The position numbers and the translations under genes were made by a program. Below, in pieces: positions 17,773 to 25,908 of a stretch of 64,000 nucleotides of DNA (position 1 is its first letter; every line of letters starts with the position of its first letter). Origin of the DNA: an uncultured Agathobaculum sp. (lineage in GTDB: Bacteria > Bacillota > Clostridia > Oscillospirales > Butyricicoccaceae); contig NZ_CALWUM010000001.1 in NCBI RefSeq assembly GCF_944384765.1, positions 124,001-188,000 on the forward strand. The letters run 5' to 3'. The notes under the pieces are model-generated. The model did not search any database. It saw nothing but the letters and a program-made list of their open reading frames with translations, and was not told the origin of the DNA.

Positions 17773-18690
17773 ATGGAATACGGTTTTGCATTTTTCCCCG
17801 GCCAGGGTGCGCAGGCGCCCGGCATGGGCAAGGATCTGTACGAAAATTCGCAGGCAGCCAAGCTGGTTTTCGAGGAAGCCAGCGAGGGCGCGGGGCTGGA
17901 CGTGGCAAAGCTCTGCTTTGACAGCGACAAGGCCACCCTCTCCCGCACGGAGAACAGCCAGATCGCGATTTTCACCCACTCGATGGCAGCACTCGCCGCG
18001 CTCACCGAGGCTGGCGTGACCTTCAAGGCCGCGGCGGGCTTTTCGCTGGGCGAATACACCGCGCTGGCCGCCGCAGGCGTGGTTTCGCTTGCGGACGGCG
18101 TCAAGATCGTCTCCATGCGCGGCAAGCTGATGCAGCAGGCGGCGGACACGATCGACGGCGGCATGGCTGCGATCCTCGGCCTGGAGGACGCCAAGATCGA
18201 AGAGGCCTGCGCCAAGGTCACAAGCGGCATTGTCCGCCCGGTCAACTACAACTGCCCCGGCCAACTGGTGATCGCGGGCGAGCGCAAAGCGCTCGACGAG
18301 GCGATCGAAAACTGCAAGGCCGCCGGCGCGCGCCGCGCGCTGCCACTTGCGGTATCTGGTGCGTTCCACACCCCGCTGATGGCCAAGGCTGCGGCCGAGC
18401 TGCGCGCCTATGTGCAGGATTTCACCTTCTCCGCGCCCAAGATGGACATTTACTCCAATTTGGATGGCGAAGTACTCGACTGTTCGGACCTGCCCGCCCA
18501 CCTCGAGCAGCACATGATTTCCCCCGTGCGCTGGACCCGGCTTGTGCAGAACGGCCTGGCGGCGGGTCTTACCACCGCGTGCGAGATCGGCCCAGGCAAG
18601 ACGCTCACCGGGTTTGCAGGCAAGATCAGCAAGGAACTCAGCTGCCGCACCGTGCAGGACATGGCCGGCGTGCAGGCGGCCGCGGAGTAA
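17773..18690 (+). CDS. fabD: Malonyl-CoA:ACP transacylase FabD
   Basis: A 305-residue acyltransferase that loads malonyl onto ACP. FFPGQGAQAPGMG is the oxyanion loop; the nucleophile is Ser91 in AAGFSLGEYTALAAAG (GFSLG where many members read GHSLG), and the catalytic His is in VSGAFHTPLM. GGAGG precedes the ATG at 17773. In most Firmicutes fabD sits inside the fabH operon; here it is inverted and alone, driven by its own promoter that competes with the fabH promoter. Confidence 0.95.
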   Translation: MEYGFAFFPGQGAQAPGMGKDLYENSQAAKLVFEEASEGAGLDVAKLCFDSDKATLSRTENSQIAIFTHSMAALAALTEAGVTFKAAAGFSLGEYTALAAAGVVSLADGVKIVSMRGKLMQQAADTIDGGMAAILGLEDAKIEEACAKVTSGIVRPVNYNCPGQLVIAGERKALDEAIENCKAAGARRALPLAVSGAFHTPLMAKAAAELRAYVQDFTFSAPKMDIYSNLDGEVLDCSDLPAHLEQHMISPVRWTRLVQNGLAAGLTTACEIGPGKTLTGFAGKISKELSCRTVQDMAGVQAAAE

Positions 18691-18725: not shown

Positions 18726-18784
18726 AGCCCCTGTTCCGCTTTGCCGCATCATGCGGCAGCCGGAACGGGGGCTGTCTTTTTTGT
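18726..18784. terminator. Terminator between fabD and the dlt-like operon
   Basis: Outer stem AGCCCCTGTTCCG...CGGAACGGGGGCT enclosing an inner GCCGCATCATGCGGC hairpin, followed by TTTTTT. It sits between convergent genes and has a T-rich side on the plus strand. Confidence 0.78.
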
Positions 18785-18786
18785 TG

Positions 18787-20619
18787 TTATCCGCCGAGCT
18801 GTTGCAGCAGTTCCTCCGCCGTGATATCGTCGATGCCGTAGCGCGGGATATTCAGCAGGGACTGCGGCAGGCCCTTGACCAGTGTGCTGGTCTGCGGCAC
18901 GGTGCCGAACGTCATCTGGATGCCGGCCTGTGCCGCCACCGCACCAGACAGCAGGGTGGACTGCCCCTCCGGATAAGCCAGCGCATAGCAGCGCGTGCCG
19001 GTCGCCTGCTCCAGTTCCTGTCTAGCGCGTGAGAGATCATCTGAAAACGCCTGAATATAGGACTGCTCGCTCTCTCCTTCCAGCGGCAGGACGTTCTCGC
19101 GCACCGCACTGCCCTCTGGCTCAAACGGCGGCCACTGGTGGAAATCATAGGTGTGGGTCTGTACGGTGATCAGGCCGGATGCCAGCATCTCGTTTGCCTG
19201 CTCCCAGCTGAAATGCGGCGTCATGGCAAAATCCGTGTCCTTGTAGGTATCCTTGCCGACCGACACGCCAATGACAAAAATCGCTGCCTTCATATCCAGT
19301 TCCTTGAGGATCGGGTAGGCTAGCTCGTAGTTGCTGGCGTAGCCGTCGTCAAACGTGATGGCGATTGGCTTTTCAGGTAGCGGCGTGCCGTACCACACAT
19401 AGTTATACAGGTCCTCCAGCGAGACCGTCTGATAGCCCGCCGCCTTGAGCGCCTCCATATGGGAGCGGAACACCTCCGTGCGGATGTCCGACGTGTCCTC
19501 CCCGTTATCGCTCAGGTGGTGATACATCAGCACCGGCACACTAGCGGTATACGCCGATTCCGGCTGGCTGCAGTCCTGCTCGAAATAGGCGCTGTCCGCC
19601 GGCATATCGCCGGTCACATAGCGCCCGAAGCCATCCGGCACATATATGCTGTCTCCGCCCGTGATCACGTCCACCATCATCTCACCGACCGAATTGCGGA
19701 AATGGGTCGCGTCATACCAGTAGCGCGGCTCATAGCTGATCGAGCTGTAAGAAAAATCCCAAATCGGCGTAACCTCGGACAGGGCATGCACAAACTGAGC
19801 CAGCCCCTCGCTCGAGAAATGCCGCAGATAATCCACATAGCACGGATTGTTGACCACGATCAGGTTAATGCCATGCTCCTCGCACAGGTCGCGGATCGCC
19901 GTCAGGCTTTTGACGCAGTTCTCGGTCTGGTACACGCCGTACTGCGCCTCCGGGTAATCGGTAAAGACCTGATACGCCTCCCGCTGCACATACTCCTCCA
20001 GGCTGCCGATCGGCTCGACATCGCGCAGGCGCTTGTCGTACGCGCCGGTTTCCACATCGAACACATCAAAGGTCTGCGGCATTTCGGTGTCGGTAAAATA
20101 CGCCTTGAGCTTTTCGATGCCATAGGTCGGATTGAGGAACAGATAGTCCAGATAAAATGGCAACAGCGGCTTTTTGCTCACCTTGGCATGCATCCGGCTG
20201 TCCAGACTATCCTCCCCCACATCATAGAGGACGGCATTGTCCACATACAGGCTGACGACCAGGTTTTTCACTTCATAATTCTCCACCAGGTAGTCGGCCA
20301 TCTGCTCCAGATCCAGCAGGTCTGCGCCATACATGATCATGTTGTAAAAGCTGGCGTCCAGCGCCTCGTTGAGCGGCTCGGTCGGGATGCTGCTAGACCC
20401 CGAACAGCCGAGGATATAGCTGTCGTACGCATCATGATGCTCGTCCAGCCACGCGATTTTGGCAACGCGCGGATTGCGCGTCATATCGTAACTGTAAAAA
20501 TCCAGCAGGCGGTCCCCAAACACGCCATAGGGATCTGTGGCGACGTTGAACCCCGCCCAGACTGCGACGGTAACGGCCAGCGCGGCGACAAACATCACAA
20601 GCCATTTTTTTGCTGTCAT
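18787..20619 (-). CDS. SGNH/DHHW-type acyltransferase fused to polysaccharide deacetylase
   Basis: A 610-residue membrane-anchored fusion. Residues 7-26 form one membrane segment. Residues about 30-330 resemble AlgX/DltD-like SGNH proteins: ILGCSGSS (69-76) holds the likely Ser and YDATHF (302-307) the Asp-X2-His. Residues about 360-610 form a NodB-type deacetylase with VLMYHHLS (363-370), ITFDDGY (421-427) and THTYDFH (488-494). The fusion should transfer acyl groups to, and remove N-acetyl groups from, an envelope glycan. It is the last gene of a dlt-like operon, in the place of DltD. The start at 20619 follows GGGAGG by 11 bases. Confidence 0.82.
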   Translation of the reverse strand: MTAKKWLVMFVAALAVTVAVWAGFNVATDPYGVFGDRLLDFYSYDMTRNPRVAKIAWLDEHHDAYDSYILGCSGSSSIPTEPLNEALDASFYNMIMYGADLLDLEQMADYLVENYEVKNLVVSLYVDNAVLYDVGEDSLDSRMHAKVSKKPLLPFYLDYLFLNPTYGIEKLKAYFTDTEMPQTFDVFDVETGAYDKRLRDVEPIGSLEEYVQREAYQVFTDYPEAQYGVYQTENCVKSLTAIRDLCEEHGINLIVVNNPCYVDYLRHFSSEGLAQFVHALSEVTPIWDFSYSSISYEPRYWYDATHFRNSVGEMMVDVITGGDSIYVPDGFGRYVTGDMPADSAYFEQDCSQPESAYTASVPVLMYHHLSDNGEDTSDIRTEVFRSHMEALKAAGYQTVSLEDLYNYVWYGTPLPEKPIAITFDDGYASNYELAYPILKELDMKAAIFVIGVSVGKDTYKDTDFAMTPHFSWEQANEMLASGLITVQTHTYDFHQWPPFEPEGSAVRENVLPLEGESEQSYIQAFSDDLSRARQELEQATGTRCYALAYPEGQSTLLSGAVAAQAGIQMTFGTVPQTSTLVKGLPQSLLNIPRYGIDDITAEELLQQLGG

Positions 20620-20638
20620 AAATTGCGCAAACCTCCCG

Positions 20639-22192
20639 TCAGAACTGTGCGTAGATAAACTGTGCCGGTACATAATCCCCGCCTGTGCCGAACAGCAAAA
20701 GCAGCAGCGGCAGCAGCACCGCTGCAAACTGCACCGCCGGCGGCCGCGCCGCCAGCCACTGCCGGATATGCACCCCGCGCTCCTGAGCATACTCGACCGC
20801 CACCAGCACCGCCGAAGCAAGCGCCACGATCAGATAATCCGTCCATCCGATGCCAAGCGACAGCACCGTGTCCGAAAGCAGGGCCGCAGGCTGGAAATCC
20901 GTTACCGTGTTCCACAGCATAGCAAGGCCGGTCAGCAGCCGCGGCGCGCGGGTGATATACCGGCCGATGAACACGATCACACAGGTGCGTGCAATGCGGA
21001 ATAGGCTCCATGCGCGGCTGTGCTCCTCCATGCGGAGCCGCGCGCGCCAAGATACGAATGTGGCCTCCAGCAGCAGGGATGTTGTGATGATAATGCCGTT
21101 ATAAAAGCCGAAAAAGATATATTTCAGGCTGGAACCGTGCCAGATGCCGATGAGCAGATAGACCACAAAAGTCGCCAGCGACGTGGCTAGGATCTTGCCC
21201 GCCTTGCCCTTGATGTGCTTGCGCGACCAGCGGCCCAAGCGGCCGAACGGGCGCGACAGCGAGAGTGGGTAAAACACATAGTCCCGCATCCAGCTGCCCA
21301 GCGTGATATGCCAGCGGCGCCAGAAATCGGCCAGCGAATGGGCAAACAACGGCCGGCGGAAGTTCTCCGTCATCTCAATCCCCAGCATCTGTGCGGTGCC
21401 GCGCGTGATGTCGATACCGCCGGAAAAATCGCAGTACAGCTGAATGCAGTAGGCCAGCGTGCCCAGCGCCAGAATGCTGCCCGGATAGGACGATGGGCTG
21501 GTATACACCGTATCCGCCACCACACCGACCCGCTCCGCGATCAGCAGTTTTTTGAAAAAGCCCCACAGGATCAGCTGGATGCCCGCGCGCAGCTGCTCAT
21601 AATCCACGCTGCGCCTGGCAAAAAGCTGCGGCGCCAGCTGATGATAGCGGCTGATCGGCCCCTGGATGATCTGCGGGAAAAACGAGGTAAACAGCGCCAG
21701 CTTCGCCAGGTTGCGCTGCGGCTCCTGTTTGCCGCGGTACACGTCGATCACATAGCCGACGGACTGGAAAACAAAAAACGACACGCCCAGCGGCATGAGC
21801 AAATCCAGCCGGGGCAGCGCCGTGCCCAGGGCGCGGTCGAGCAGCCCGGCGGTGTAATCCCAGTATTTCAGCAAAAACAGCATGCCGAAGTTGAGCACGC
21901 ACGCCGCCGCGACAACCGCCTTTTTCCTGTGCCGGATGCGCTGCTGCAGGCCGGCCTTATCCGCGTCGGACAGGGCTTTGCGCTGTGCATTCAGCCTGCC
22001 GAGCAGCAGTCCCGCGGCATAGACCGTCACGGTTGTGAACAGCAGGTAGACCACCGTCCGCACACCGCTGCTGCAATAGAACACATAGCTTGCCGCAAGC
22101 AGGATCATCCACTGCATCCGTTTGGGGATGCAGTAGTACACCACCGTCAGCAGGACGAGAAAGGCGATATAGGTGAAAGAGGTGAATGACAT
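20639..22192 (-). CDS. MBOAT-family O-acyltransferase (AlgI/DltB-like)
   Basis: A 517-residue polytopic enzyme with about 11-12 membrane segments. Members move acyl groups across the membrane onto extracellular polymers. Family marks are LMPLGVSFFVFQSVGYVIDVYRG, FPQIIQGPISRYHQL, SLADFWRRWHITLGSWMRDYVFYPL and the catalytic-His region LIGIWHGSSLKYIFFG. It resembles AlgI more than classical DltB. The carrier-protein gene ends 4 bases upstream and the SGNH/deacetylase fusion starts 19 bases downstream, the usual MBOAT-SGNH pairing. Confidence 0.9.
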   Translation of the reverse strand: MSFTSFTYIAFLVLLTVVYYCIPKRMQWMILLAASYVFYCSSGVRTVVYLLFTTVTVYAAGLLLGRLNAQRKALSDADKAGLQQRIRHRKKAVVAAACVLNFGMLFLLKYWDYTAGLLDRALGTALPRLDLLMPLGVSFFVFQSVGYVIDVYRGKQEPQRNLAKLALFTSFFPQIIQGPISRYHQLAPQLFARRSVDYEQLRAGIQLILWGFFKKLLIAERVGVVADTVYTSPSSYPGSILALGTLAYCIQLYCDFSGGIDITRGTAQMLGIEMTENFRRPLFAHSLADFWRRWHITLGSWMRDYVFYPLSLSRPFGRLGRWSRKHIKGKAGKILATSLATFVVYLLIGIWHGSSLKYIFFGFYNGIIITTSLLLEATFVSWRARLRMEEHSRAWSLFRIARTCVIVFIGRYITRAPRLLTGLAMLWNTVTDFQPAALLSDTVLSLGIGWTDYLIVALASAVLVAVEYAQERGVHIRQWLAARPPAVQFAAVLLPLLLLLFGTGGDYVPAQFIYAQF

Positions 22193-22196
22193 GGGA

Positions 22197-22418
22197 TTAC
22201 TGCAGCCTCTGGATCATATCCCACATACTCTGCGCCGAATTAAAGTTCTCCGGCGTCAGGTCGTCCACCGTGATCTCCACCGAAAACGCCTCCATCAGCT
22301 CGGAAACGATCGTCACAATATCCAGCGACTCGATCAGGCCGTCGTCGACCAGCGCGGTCTCATTGCGGAAGTCGATCCCCGGGCAGCACTCGGTCAAAAT
22401 CTCAATCAGCTTATCCAT
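22197..22418 (-). CDS. DltC-like acyl/aminoacyl carrier protein
   Basis: A 73-residue carrier protein. Ser31 in DDGLIESLDIVTIV is the expected 4'-phosphopantetheine site. Size and the LIESLD motif fit DltC-type D-alanyl carriers better than fatty-acid ACP, which has its own gene at 9113-9340. It lies between the GNAT and MBOAT genes and 28 bases from the former, so it most likely carries the group activated by the adenylation enzyme and delivers it to the MBOAT protein. Confidence 0.88.
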   Translation of the reverse strand: MDKLIEILTECCPGIDFRNETALVDDGLIESLDIVTIVSELMEAFSVEITVDDLTPENFNSAQSMWDMIQRLQ

Positions 22419-22446
22419 TTTGTATTCCTCCTGTATCTGTTGTTCT

Positions 22447-23196
22447 TTATCGTATCATGACGGTACTTGTCCATCCATCCGGCGCAAACCCTTCCGCCTG
22501 ATAGACGTGCTGTGCCGCCGCGTTGTCCGCACCCGTCCACACGGTTGCGCGGCAGGCGGCGGTCACGCTGTTAAAGCGGCCGACCAGCGTGCGGGCCAGC
22601 CCCTGTCCGCGCCGGGCGGGCGAAACCGCCAGCTGGCGGATCTCCGCAGTGCGGCCGGGCAGAAAGCGCAGCAGCGCATCCGCGCCGTGCGTCAAAACGC
22701 AGCCTGCGCGCAGATCCTGCACAAATTCCTCCCACACCGGCAGGCAGCCGGTGAGCGGATCAAAGCTCTCCGTAAGCAGCCAGTACAGCGCGCGGGCATC
22801 TTCTTCCGCCGGGGCCGCTGCGGGTTCGTCCTGCGCCTCCAGCGCAGGACGCGCCAGCCGGATGCGCCGCAGCCGCACGGCAAAGCCGAGACGGGTGAAG
22901 TATGCCTGCGCCGCGTCCGCCCGCTGCGGCCGGTGCGGCAGCTCGACCAGCGTGTTGGCCGGCAGGCCAGCCTCTGGCAGCGCCTCGAGGTCGGTCAGGT
23001 AATAATGCAGCACCGCGTGCCCTGGCCGGCGCCGCAGCAGGAACAGTCCGCCCGCCCAGCTGTAAACCGACAGGGTGCCGCGCGCTATTTCGCCGCGCAG
23101 CTCCTCCGCGCCCAGGATGCGGTTGGTCAGCACGCCCGGGCGGAACTGGCTGCTGATCAGCGCGGACAGCGCCCCATAGTCACGAACGGTCTGCAC
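22447..23196 (-). CDS. GNAT-family N-acetyltransferase
   Basis: A 249-residue protein whose C-terminal half (about 130-249) is a GNAT domain: IRQLAVSPARRGQGLARTLVGRF is the acetyl-CoA pyrophosphate loop and VWTGADNAAAQHVYQAEGF the final motif. The N-terminal half is a diverged, possibly second GNAT-like lobe. The start GTG at 23196 has GGAGG 9 bases upstream and overlaps the adenylation gene by 17 bases. Its place in the dlt-like operon suggests N-acylation of the carrier-bound amino acid or of a sugar; this is inference. Classical dlt operons lack such a gene. Confidence 0.83.
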   Translation of the reverse strand: MQTVRDYGALSALISSQFRPGVLTNRILGAEELRGEIARGTLSVYSWAGGLFLLRRRPGHAVLHYYLTDLEALPEAGLPANTLVELPHRPQRADAAQAYFTRLGFAVRLRRIRLARPALEAQDEPAAAPAEEDARALYWLLTESFDPLTGCLPVWEEFVQDLRAGCVLTHGADALLRFLPGRTAEIRQLAVSPARRGQGLARTLVGRFNSVTAACRATVWTGADNAAAQHVYQAEGFAPDGWTSTVMIR

Positions 23197-24706
23197 GGCT
23201 GTATTCCTCCCGCAGGGCCACCCGATCCACCTTGCCGTTTGCATTGTGCGGCAGGCGGTCGTGCGGCCGCCAGATATTGGGCAGCATATAGCGGGGCAGG
23301 CGATCCTTCAGCTGCGCCACCAGCGCATCCGGCGTCAGTCCCCCTTCATAGCAGCACACGATGCGGTCGCGCTCGCTGTCAAAAAAGCAGATGGCATCCG
23401 GCACGCCCGCAAGGGACAGCAGCGCGGTTTCGATTTCGCCCAACTCGATCCGGTAGCCCATGTGCTTGATCTGCCCGTCCTTGCGGGCGGAAAAATAGAG
23501 CAGCCCATCCGCGCCGCGCACGCCGATGTCGCCGGTCCGGTAAATCCGGTCGGGATAGGCTGGATTGAGCGGGTTCTGCACAAAAGCGGCGGCGGTTTTC
23601 TCCGGTTCTCCATAGTAGCCGCACGCCAGGCCAATACCGCGCACGCAGATCTCCCCCGGCTCCCCGTCCGCCGCTGGACACATCGCATCGTTCAGCAGCA
23701 GCACCTGCTTGTTGCGGCAGGCTGTGCCGATCGGCAGCGGCTCTTCATCGGAAAAGCTGCGATCCAACGGCACGGGATACCAGGTACAGTCCACGGTCAC
23801 CTCGGTTGGACCGTACAGGTTGATATACTGCACCCCGGGCAACGCGCGCCGCCAGACATTCAAATTGCGCGCCATCAGCGCTTCACCGCCAACAATGACG
23901 CAGCGCAGGCTGCGCGGCTGGCATTTTTCCAGCGCCTTTGCATTTGCCACCAGATTGAACGCCGAAGTTGCCCAGATCAGCGCGGTGGCGCCGATGCGTT
24001 CGATCTCGCGCAGCAGCATCAGTGGGAACATAAACAGTTTTTTGGGCAGAATGTGCGTGGCTGCGCCGCATTTGAGGGTCAGATAAATGTCCTTTACCGA
24101 CAGGTCAAAGTAAAACGGCGCCTGGTTGGCAAGAATATCGGCCTCGCCGATCCCGCTCGCCTCCGCCATCCACTCGGTAAAGTCGATCACCGCCCGGTGC
24201 GAGATCACAATGCCCTTGGGCGTGCCGGTCGAGCCCGAGGTGAAAATCACATAAGCGGGGTCGATATCCAGCACCATGGCGCGGCGGGCCGCCACCAGCG
24301 CCGCATCCGGCGCGGTGTTTTCCACCTCCTCCAGGCAGAGCAGCGGGCAGCCCGCATCGATTGCCGGCAGCACGCCCTGCTGGTCCGCCGCATACAGCAG
24401 CAGCGCCGGCTGCAGCTGATCCAGCACGGCCTGCATCCGCCGGGCAGGCATCCGCTCGTCGATCGGCACATAGAAATTACCGCTTGCCAACACACCCTGA
24501 AAGGCAGCCAGCGTGATCGCCGTGCGCCCCACCAGCACAGCGACCGGCCGGTTCACCGCCTCTGTCCGCTGTGCGATCGCCGCGGCGCACCGGTGGGCAA
24601 AATCCAGCAGCTGCGCAAAGGTGAAGCTGCGCTTTTCATCTGCGAACGCCGTTTTTTCCGGCACGCGCGCCGCTGAATTTTCCAGATATTCCAACAGATT
24701 CAACAT
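23180..24706 (-). CDS. DltA-like amino acid adenylation enzyme
   Basis: A 508-residue ANL-family ligase with DltA length. Core motifs: VIFTSGSTGTPKGIVISH (ATP loop, about 153-170), NLYGPTEVTVDCTWY, YRTGDIGVRGADGLLYFSARKDGQIKHMGYRIELGEIE, and NANGKVDR with the catalytic Lys near the C terminus. It should activate an amino acid (D-Ala in true DltA) with ATP and load it onto the DltC-like carrier. First gene of the five-gene operon. I place the start at 24706 (MLNLLEYLEN), the normal family N terminus, although the ribosome binding site is weak. The substrate cannot be read from the sequence. Confidence 0.85.
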   Translation of the reverse strand: MLNLLEYLENSAARVPEKTAFADEKRSFTFAQLLDFAHRCAAAIAQRTEAVNRPVAVLVGRTAITLAAFQGVLASGNFYVPIDERMPARRMQAVLDQLQPALLLYAADQQGVLPAIDAGCPLLCLEEVENTAPDAALVAARRAMVLDIDPAYVIFTSGSTGTPKGIVISHRAVIDFTEWMAEASGIGEADILANQAPFYFDLSVKDIYLTLKCGAATHILPKKLFMFPLMLLREIERIGATALIWATSAFNLVANAKALEKCQPRSLRCVIVGGEALMARNLNVWRRALPGVQYINLYGPTEVTVDCTWYPVPLDRSFSDEEPLPIGTACRNKQVLLLNDAMCPAADGEPGEICVRGIGLACGYYGEPEKTAAAFVQNPLNPAYPDRIYRTGDIGVRGADGLLYFSARKDGQIKHMGYRIELGEIETALLSLAGVPDAICFFDSERDRIVCCYEGGLTPDALVAQLKDRLPRYMLPNIWRPHDRLPHNANGKVDRVALREEYSRADRS

Positions 24707-25068: not shown

Positions 25069-25908
25069 TCAAAATACCGGCACAACCGCGCCCTTATAAG
25101 TGTCCTCGATGAACTGCTTGACCGTGTCGCTTCTGAGCGCATCGGCCAGCGCCTGGATTTTCTCGCTGTTTTCATCGCCGTTGCGGCAGGCCACGGTGTT
25201 GATATACACCTGCGCATACTCCGGGTTCTCGGTGATGAGCGAGTCCTCGTTCGCGTTCAGGTCAGCCTGCAGCGCATAGTTGCCGTTGATGACCGCGAGG
25301 TCCACGTCCGCCAGCGAGCGCGGCAGCTGCTCGGCTGCGATCTCCTGGATGTTCAGGTTTTTCGGATTTTCCACAATGTCCAGTACGGTCGCGTCCGAGG
25401 TCGGGTCAATGCCGTCCGCCAGCGTGATCAGGCCCGCATCCTGCAGCAGCAGGAGCGCGCGGGTCTCGTTCGAGCCGTCGTTCGGCACAGCGATGGTCGC
25501 GCCGTCCGCCAGCTCCTCGAGCGTTGCGGTCTTGCCCGGATAGATGCCGAACGGCTCATAGTGCATCTCGATTGCGGAGACCAGATCGGCATTGTTTTCC
25601 TTGTTGAAGTTGTTCAGGTACGGAATGTGCTGGAAGTAATTCGCGTCCAGATCGCCATCCACCAGTGCGGTGTTGGGCTGCACATAGTCGGTGAACTCCA
25701 CAACCTCGAGCGTCCAGCCCGCCTCGGCAAGCACATCCTTAGCTGCGTTCAGGATTTCCGCATGCGGCGTGGGCGAAGCGCCGACCACGATGGTCTTGTC
25801 GTCGGATGCGCCGCCTTCCGCGGTCTGTGCGTCGCTCCCGCCGCCGCAGGCGGTCAGGGCGGACAGGCACAGCGCGCCTGCCAGCAGAGCTGCAATTTTC
25901 TTCTTCAT
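25069..25908 (-). CDS. metQ: Methionine ABC transporter substrate-binding lipoprotein MetQ
   Basis: A 279-residue lipoprotein of the NlpA/MetQ family, which captures methionine for the MetNI importer. The signal peptide ends LSALTACGGG. Family motifs are VGASPTPHAEIL, VEFTDYVQPNTALVDGDLDANYFQHIPYL and IAVPNDGSNETRALLLLQDAGLITL. The start at 25908 is preceded by AAAGGAGAG. A 199-base spacer and a 73-residue reading frame separate it from metI, an unusual gap for this operon. I see no clear promoter in 25909-26107. Confidence 0.94.
   Translation of the reverse strand: MKKKIAALLAGALCLSALTACGGGSDAQTAEGGASDDKTIVVGASPTPHAEILNAAKDVLAEAGWTLEVVEFTDYVQPNTALVDGDLDANYFQHIPYLNNFNKENNADLVSAIEMHYEPFGIYPGKTATLEELADGATIAVPNDGSNETRALLLLQDAGLITLADGIDPTSDATVLDIVENPKNLNIQEIAAEQLPRSLADVDLAVINGNYALQADLNANEDSLITENPEYAQVYINTVACRNGDENSEKIQALADALRSDTVKQFIEDTYKGAVVPVF

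Follow-up and report, generated by a model that had tools for sequence, protein, structure and literature searches.

The stretch of DNA analyzed here (hereafter the window) comprises 64,000 nucleotides from an uncultured Agathobaculum sp. (contig NZ_CALWUM010000001.1 of assembly GCF_944384765.1, positions 124,001 to 188,000) and carries, at window positions 18787-24706, a five-gene operon that probably encodes a self-contained machine for the acylation of an envelope glycan, which would be supplied by a carrier protein and linked to a deacetylase. Five intact, open and co-directional reading frames, running on the minus strand from 24706 to 18787, encode an adenylation enzyme (A-enzyme), a tandem GNAT, a carrier protein, an MBOAT acyltransferase and a fusion of an SGNH with a NodB domain. 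The A-enzyme and GNAT genes overlap by 17 bp (the GNAT start codon is a GTG at 23196), and the gaps that follow are 28 bp (GNAT to acyl carrier protein, ACP), 4 bp (ACP to MBOAT) and 19 bp (MBOAT to fusion), the last of these as read from the sequence, while one other calculation took the start 3 bases downstream; with this 17-bp overlap and gaps of at most 28 bp, the compact five-gene operon described in the initial annotation was borne out. All five genes are under purifying selection, with ratios of nonsynonymous to synonymous substitution rates (dN/dS) of 0.09-0.31 against the closest ortholog. The A-enzyme, GNAT, MBOAT and NodB half of the fusion could be assigned with confidence and the carrier marginally; the domain assignments are as follows:

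23180..24706, minus strand: stand-alone amino-acid adenylation enzyme, 508 amino acids (TIGR01733 344.5 bits, above the cut-off of 317.4; below the DltA cut-offs)
22447..23196, minus strand: tandem GNAT (PF00583; AlphaFold2 model)
22197..22418, minus strand: carrier protein, 73 amino acids, phosphopantetheine site Ser31 (weak PF00550, DltC and ACP matches)
20639..22192, minus strand: MBOAT acyltransferase, 517 amino acids, catalytic His352 in IWHG (PF03062 59.5 bits; DltB structure matches)
20642..20659, minus strand: putative C-terminal acyl-shuttle motif FIYAQF (FxYxxF), MBOAT residues 512-517 (family conservation; function from PMC12148441)
18787..20619, minus strand: SGNH-NodB fusion, 610 amino acids, one N-terminal transmembrane helix, residues 3-28 (AlphaFold2 model)
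19615..20496, minus strand: SGNH acyltransferase-like domain, Ser73/Asp303/His306, DltD-like fold (structure matches; residue conservation)
18790..19548, minus strand: NodB/CE4 deacetylase domain, TFDDG at 422-426 and HTYDFH at 489-494 (PF01522, PgaB model and structure matches)

The operon had been described as Dlt-like in its logic, and this description holds, since it shares with the Dlt system (DltA/B/C/D/X) an A-enzyme as loader, a carrier, an MBOAT and an SGNH transferase whose fold is DltD-like. It differs from Dlt in the putatively acidic type of its substrate pocket, in the additional GNAT, in a shuttle motif that is located on the MBOAT rather than on DltX, and in the fusion of the SGNH domain to a de-N-acetylase. 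In Dlt, the MBOAT passes D-Ala from the carrier to the Tyr of an FXYXXF motif in the microprotein DltX, after which DltD takes over, while PatA/AlgI-type systems have this motif at the C-terminus of the MBOAT itself and draw on acyl-CoA as donor (PMC12148441). The window MBOAT scores above the PF03062 cut-off, matches DltB structures (E ~2e-23), has an invariant H352 and ends in FIYAQF as its last six residues. FIY..F is invariant in five MBOATs of the family, a closely similar motif is found in the wider MBOAT set, and FIY is present in nearly all class members. Because this MBOAT carries its own C-terminal shuttle motif, no DltX would be needed; a separate DltX microprotein was not found in the operon, where the gaps leave no room for one. 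PatA/PatB, AlgI/AlgJ/AlgX, WssHI and CcsHI likewise pair a C-terminal FxYxxF MBOAT with an SGNH partner, but these systems are reported to use acyl-CoA and no carrier (PMC12148441), whereas the window operon has genes for a loader and a carrier, and its SGNH domain bears a deacetylase. The presence of a loader and a carrier alongside an MBOAT with its own FxYxxF shuttle therefore points to a hybrid between Dlt and the PatA/AlgI type, in which the MBOAT would, judging from operon composition and from the loader swaps described below, accept a carrier-bound acyl group. The carrier is marginal to PF00550 (20.2 versus 20.8 bits), its ESL serine (Ser31 in DGLIESLD) is intact, and it is 88% identical to an ortholog at locus L038 (dN/dS 0.086).

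A diverged or decaying dltABCD operon that D-alanylates teichoic acid would follow the same A-carrier-MBOAT-SGNH logic and would account for the DltD-like fold and for the weak matches to the DltA, DltB and DltC models. These matches are, however, far below the curated cut-offs (DltA TIGR01734, 276.5 versus 559.85 bits; DltB TIGR04091, 152.8 versus 375 bits; DltC TIGR01688, 16.4 versus 52.35 bits), and DltD (PF04914) had no match in the fusion or anywhere else in the genome, while the B. subtilis and L. lactis controls were positive. The A-enzyme pocket also lacks the DltA signature, the shuttle is on the MBOAT instead of on DltX, the genes are under purifying selection, and another Dlt-like operon of this genome (on contig C1, see below) is itself below the cut-offs; a diverged dlt operon is thus very improbable. 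The initial annotation had allowed that another full dltABCD operon might reveal the present one to be a decayed copy, a candidate that was rejected given the scores, the lack of DltD in the genome and the purifying selection. Judged by its MBOAT, shuttle and SGNH sequence features, the operon appears to belong to the MBOAT-SGNH kind of envelope acylation system and not to the Dlt family.

The AlphaFold2 model of the fusion, built on an alignment of 56 homologs (predicted local distance difference test, pLDDT, 96.1; predicted template modelling score 0.92), has a helix at residues 3-28, which is taken as a membrane anchor, followed by an SGNH domain at about 42-335 and a NodB domain at 358-610. 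The SGNH half has no Pfam match and was confirmed by structure prediction alone. Over model residues 25-342 it matches DltD (6o93, Z 11.1; 3bma, 10.7; 7dxm, 10.7; range 10.4-11.1) and PatB (8tlb, Z 11.0), values that are moderate and tied with those of other SGNH hydrolases and so fix the fold class, not the function. The NodB half matches PF01522 (80.9 bits) and, below the cut-off of 321.9, the PgaB model TIGR03938 (123.4 bits), and its nearest structures are E. coli PgaB (3vus, Z 31.2), S. pyogenes PplD (6dq3, 29.4) and IcaB (4wcj, 29.3). It shares the NodB fold and motifs with these CE4 enzymes (Z 29-31) but is fused to an SGNH domain, and genes for poly-N-acetylglucosamine (PNAG) synthesis are found neither in the operon nor, above cut-off, in the genome. 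The last protein of the operon is therefore best described as a predicted membrane-anchored, extracellular DltD-like SGNH protein joined to a PgaB/IcaB-like de-N-acetylase. While structure prediction supported the combination of an SGNH and a NodB fold that had been suggested, DltD has not been replaced, as the initial annotation had it: the N-terminal half has the DltD-like fold, and the deacetylase is appended to it.

Both catalytic sets had been considered intact, and Ser73, Asp303, His306, Asp424, Asp425, His489 and His494 were indeed all kept in 50 of the 50 fusions of the 56-sequence alignment that adjoin an MBOAT. Asp303/His306 and the TFDDG motif at 422-426 had been placed exactly; the nucleophile is Ser73 of a GCS motif and not Ser74. 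Among the six fusions without an adjacent MBOAT, Ser73 was lost in two, which both kept the NodB residues. Such a pattern of site loss is expected if the SGNH half depends on an MBOAT for its function and deacetylation is useful alone. Genus g8 of the family (L043-L047), which has no such operon, encodes stand-alone proteins with a shortened, degenerate SGNH part and intact NodB motifs; these adjoin unrelated genes, for example one for formate-tetrahydrofolate ligase, and appear to be what remained of the fusion once the MBOAT was lost. The persistence of NodB motifs where the SGNH half is degenerate and no MBOAT adjoins would also fit a variant, overlapping with the explanation preferred here, in which the two halves act on different glycans and are joined for co-localization only. 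The retention of both sites in every MBOAT-adjoining fusion aligned, across several phylogenetic classes, argues against this variant, which is less likely than not.

A scan based on the fusion, covering one genome per species in about 85,000 genomes, yielded 80 loci. The complete five-gene set was detected in 33 of these by automatic profile search; counted conservatively, at least 31 of the 80 have all five genes in the same order, the GNAT match being weak in L147 and divergent in L129, L130 and L165. The five genes are thus co-conserved, and the failure to co-occur that would have spoken against the initial annotation was not observed. These operons occur in many Clostridia and sit in unrelated surroundings, with no other gene conserved beside them. 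Among 87 genomes of the family, the five-gene order is kept in 5, representing 3 genera, and the operon is present in Agathobaculum butyriciproducens DSM 100391 (L096), a cultured member of the same genus. The literature search found no operon of such composition and no description of an SGNH-NodB fusion, in agreement with the earlier statement that no system with this exact set was known; most subscription papers and all preprints were outside its scope.

The remaining loci showed that the gene content around the MBOAT and the fusion varies. Eight loci have A-enzyme, ACP, MBOAT and fusion without GNAT. In 15 others an FkbH-type loader is present, usually in the order MBOAT-fusion-carrier-FkbH (L119, L123, L127, L131-L133, L135, L138, L140, L143, L145, L146, L152, L154 and L042, the last in genome G008, where FkbH was identified by TIGR01686 at 254 bits). 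FkbH-type loaders make glyceryl-carrier in known pathways, and a glyceryl-type (gellan-like) esterification paired with de-N-acetylation is predicted for these loci. Ten loci consist of just the MBOAT and the fusion; they are from Paenibacillus, Planococcus, Gracilibacillus, Fusibacter and others and probably represent an acetyl-CoA-fed version; two-gene loci of this type without a loader (L149, L151, L153, L156-L158 and L161-L163) have cultured, more tractable hosts. Two further loci have carrier, MBOAT and fusion, L104 with a GNAT but no A-domain and L122 without any loader; here the loader may be encoded elsewhere or the carrier charged by another enzyme. MBOAT and fusion thus form a constant core, for which the donor modules (A+GNAT+ACP, A+ACP, ACP+FkbH or none) appear to have been exchanged in evolution.

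The occurrence of MBOAT and fusion without a donor gene raises the alternative that the two O-acetylate from acetyl-CoA and de-N-acetylate, while A-enzyme, GNAT and carrier form a separate small-molecule pathway on the same transcript. The fused-shuttle MBOATs studied so far do use acyl-CoA (PMC12148441). However, an A-domain and the core occur together, contiguous and in order, in 41 loci, 15 others pair the same core with ACP-FkbH, and the fusions cluster by donor type on their tree (12 changes for 7 labels versus a shuffled mean of 29.4), making two unconnected pathways an unlikely explanation.

The A-enzyme matches the AMP-binding family at 227 bits and has a dN/dS of 0.155 against an 80% identical ortholog. 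Its pocket, numbered by the GrsA positions 235/236/239/278/299/301/322/330/331/517, reads DLKIIGLVDK (Asp235, Leu236, Lys239, Ile278, Ile299, Gly301, Leu322, Val330, Asp331 and Lys517), where position 278 is the least sure assignment, being Ile or Trp depending on the alignment. Asp235, which is D201 of the enzyme itself, is invariant. From these residues the pocket is read as being of amino-acid type, neither DltA-like nor fatty-acid-like. The clearly fatty-acid pocket that would have told against the earlier proposal was not found, and an A-domain of fatty-acid type was ruled out by the TIGR01733 score above cut-off and the presence of Asp235. With regard to a possible Glu specificity, the pocket has K239, G301, V330 and D331, and the surfactin code for Glu, taken here as DAKDLGVVDK (a string that was not found in the literature searched), shares six of the ten positions, with a seventh being a close substitute. 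In the surfactin A domain, K239 recognizes Glu and separates it from Gln (PMC11355689). K239 and V330-D331 are kept in nearly all GNAT-bearing operons, whereas the A-domain of L147 has Gln at position 239. An acidic amino acid, most likely glutamate, is therefore a plausible candidate for the substrate, at about even chances on this sequence evidence.

Pocket type and tailoring gene were found to go together. A GNAT is present in 30 of 33 operons with a VDK-type pocket and in none of the five with a CNK-type pocket (Fisher p 1e-4, uncorrected for phylogeny); the Val-Asp type characterizes nearly all GNAT-bearing operons, and the Cys-Asn type occurs in five GNAT-less fusion operons and in the operons with a pyridoxal phosphate (PLP) enzyme discussed below. 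This association supports an action of the GNAT on the loaded amino acid. The shuttle motif also co-varies with donor class, in that the MBOATs of the GNAT-less fusion operons with Cys-Asn pockets (L112, L118, L126, L136 and L137) end in AYVYE and not in FIYxQF.

The GNAT (PF00583, 35.5 bits) consists of two repeats, of which the N-terminal one is degenerate and the C-terminal one has an intact acetyl-CoA motif RxxGxG/A (RRGQGLA). Its AlphaFold2 model (pLDDT 94.4) is nearest, among solved folds, to mycothiol synthase MshD (2c27, Z 17.2). In the family, this gene is present in 5 of 87 genomes (G000, G002, G016, G041 and G044; 3 genera), always within a complete five-gene operon. At the order level, 6 of 394 genomes have a strong GNAT match, and the fusion is present in all 6, compared to 19 of 394 overall (hypergeometric ~5e-9); in each, the full fusion lies about 1.8-1.9 kb downstream on the same contig and strand. 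The initial annotation regarded the GNAT as an addition to a dlt-like set, and while its co-conservation in many operons agrees with this, it is an optional, class-specific part that 8 operons lack and that 15 have FkbH in place of; related operons without GNAT rule it out as an essential core component. N-acetylation of the carrier-bound amino acid is the simplest reaction for this enzyme and is tentatively proposed, at somewhat less than even chances. As a speculation, it might prevent cyclization if the side-chain carboxylate is the activated one.

Taken together, the operon could act in five steps, in the course of which an amino acid would be passed across the membrane to an envelope glycan. 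The A-enzyme would activate an acidic amino acid, for which glutamate is the best candidate, and load it onto the carrier, where the GNAT would N-acetylate or otherwise N-acylate it. The MBOAT would then transfer the acyl group from the carrier to Tyr514 at its own C-terminus, from which it would be handed to SGNH Ser73 for esterification of an envelope-glycan hydroxyl. Finally, the NodB domain would remove N-acetyl groups from N-acetylglucosamine (GlcNAc)-type residues of the same glycan or a neighboring one, and deacetylation could possibly create the acceptor site. The core of this mechanism is quite likely correct. The NodB half is nearest to enzymes that act on GlcNAc-containing polymers, and peptidoglycan or a secondary cell-wall polysaccharide is favored over PNAG as acceptor because a profile search by family found no PgaC/IcaA-type synthase above cut-off in the genome. 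That search result, together with the lack of a glycosyltransferase conserved beside the operons, rules out a PNAG locus. In a more specific version, which is unlikely, a single extracellular protein would do both: the NodB half would remove the N-acetyl group of GlcNAc and the SGNH half would attach the carrier-derived (N-acetyl-)aminoacyl group to that very sugar, perhaps at the amine just exposed. The products would be N- or O-aminoacyl sugars and, if true, this exchange of N-acyl groups would represent a type of envelope-glycan modification that is new.

Several points weigh against the proposed mechanism. The substrate code is an inferred one, with the alignment-sensitive position 278, and K239 is present in CNK-type pockets too. 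Related operons do without the GNAT, which could have a different target; N-acetylation would also remove a free amino group that may matter functionally, as it does in Dlt. The operon encodes no glycan synthase, and none of PgaC/IcaA type was detected above cut-off in the genome. In addition, the generalization that fused-shuttle MBOATs use acyl-CoA (PMC12148441) would predict no carrier here. The combination of A-domain, carrier and GNAT resembles a minimal nonribosomal peptide synthetase module, and MBOATs can act on lipids, so that the operon could instead make and export a small N-acyl amino acid or lipoamino acid as a signal or antibiotic, with the MBOAT esterifying a lipid or small alcohol. 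This is improbable, as the operon lacks both an exporter and a condensation domain and the predicted membrane-anchored, extracellular DltD-like SGNH protein with its PgaB/IcaB/PplD-like deacetylase points to glycans.

The same genome carries three Dlt-like systems in total and no true DltD. A sister operon on contig C4 (L076:7575-12122) encodes an A-domain, a PLP type III decarboxylase-like protein (TIGR03099/LysA-like), a carrier and an MBOAT that ends in PIYAAF; relatives at L077 and L078 include an additional, separate SGNH protein. The decarboxylase fills the slot that the GNAT holds in the window operon, and it looks like the carrier-bound amino acid is decarboxylated before export in a BtrK-like manner. 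Butirosin BtrI/BtrK and the exosortase-A-associated sets of ligase, decarboxylase and ACP are alike in that a carrier-bound amino acid is tailored by an enzyme of the operon, but the PLP decarboxylase is shared by the C4 operon only, while the window operon has a GNAT instead. The third operon, on contig C1 at about 200.7-204.5 kb (L075:8668-12483), encodes an A-domain, a carrier, a short MBOAT without a C-terminal shuttle and an SGNH protein without a Pfam match, all below the dlt cut-offs.

The window operon is flanked by a gene for a MetQ-like lipoprotein (ending at 25069) and by a convergent malonyl transacylase gene, fabD (ending at 18690), with a terminator-like hairpin at 18755-18776. 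A sigma-70 scan upstream of the operon, on its own strand, found no promoter-like site.

Dlt, with carrier and DltX, and PatA/AlgI, with acyl-CoA and a fused shuttle, have been treated as separate designs (PMC12148441), and the family described here joins carrier feeding to a fused shuttle. As at least two or three different loaders are combined with its core, these operons represent natural experiments on the choice of MBOATs between carrier and CoA donors. The predicted product is specific enough to be searched for by mass spectrometry in the cultured A. butyriciproducens DSM 100391. The prediction is that amino acids other than D-Ala are attached to the surface glycans of many gut Clostridia, which would de-N-acetylate these glycans as well; both modifications would change the charge of the surface and might also affect how sensitive the cells are to lysozyme and cationic peptides.

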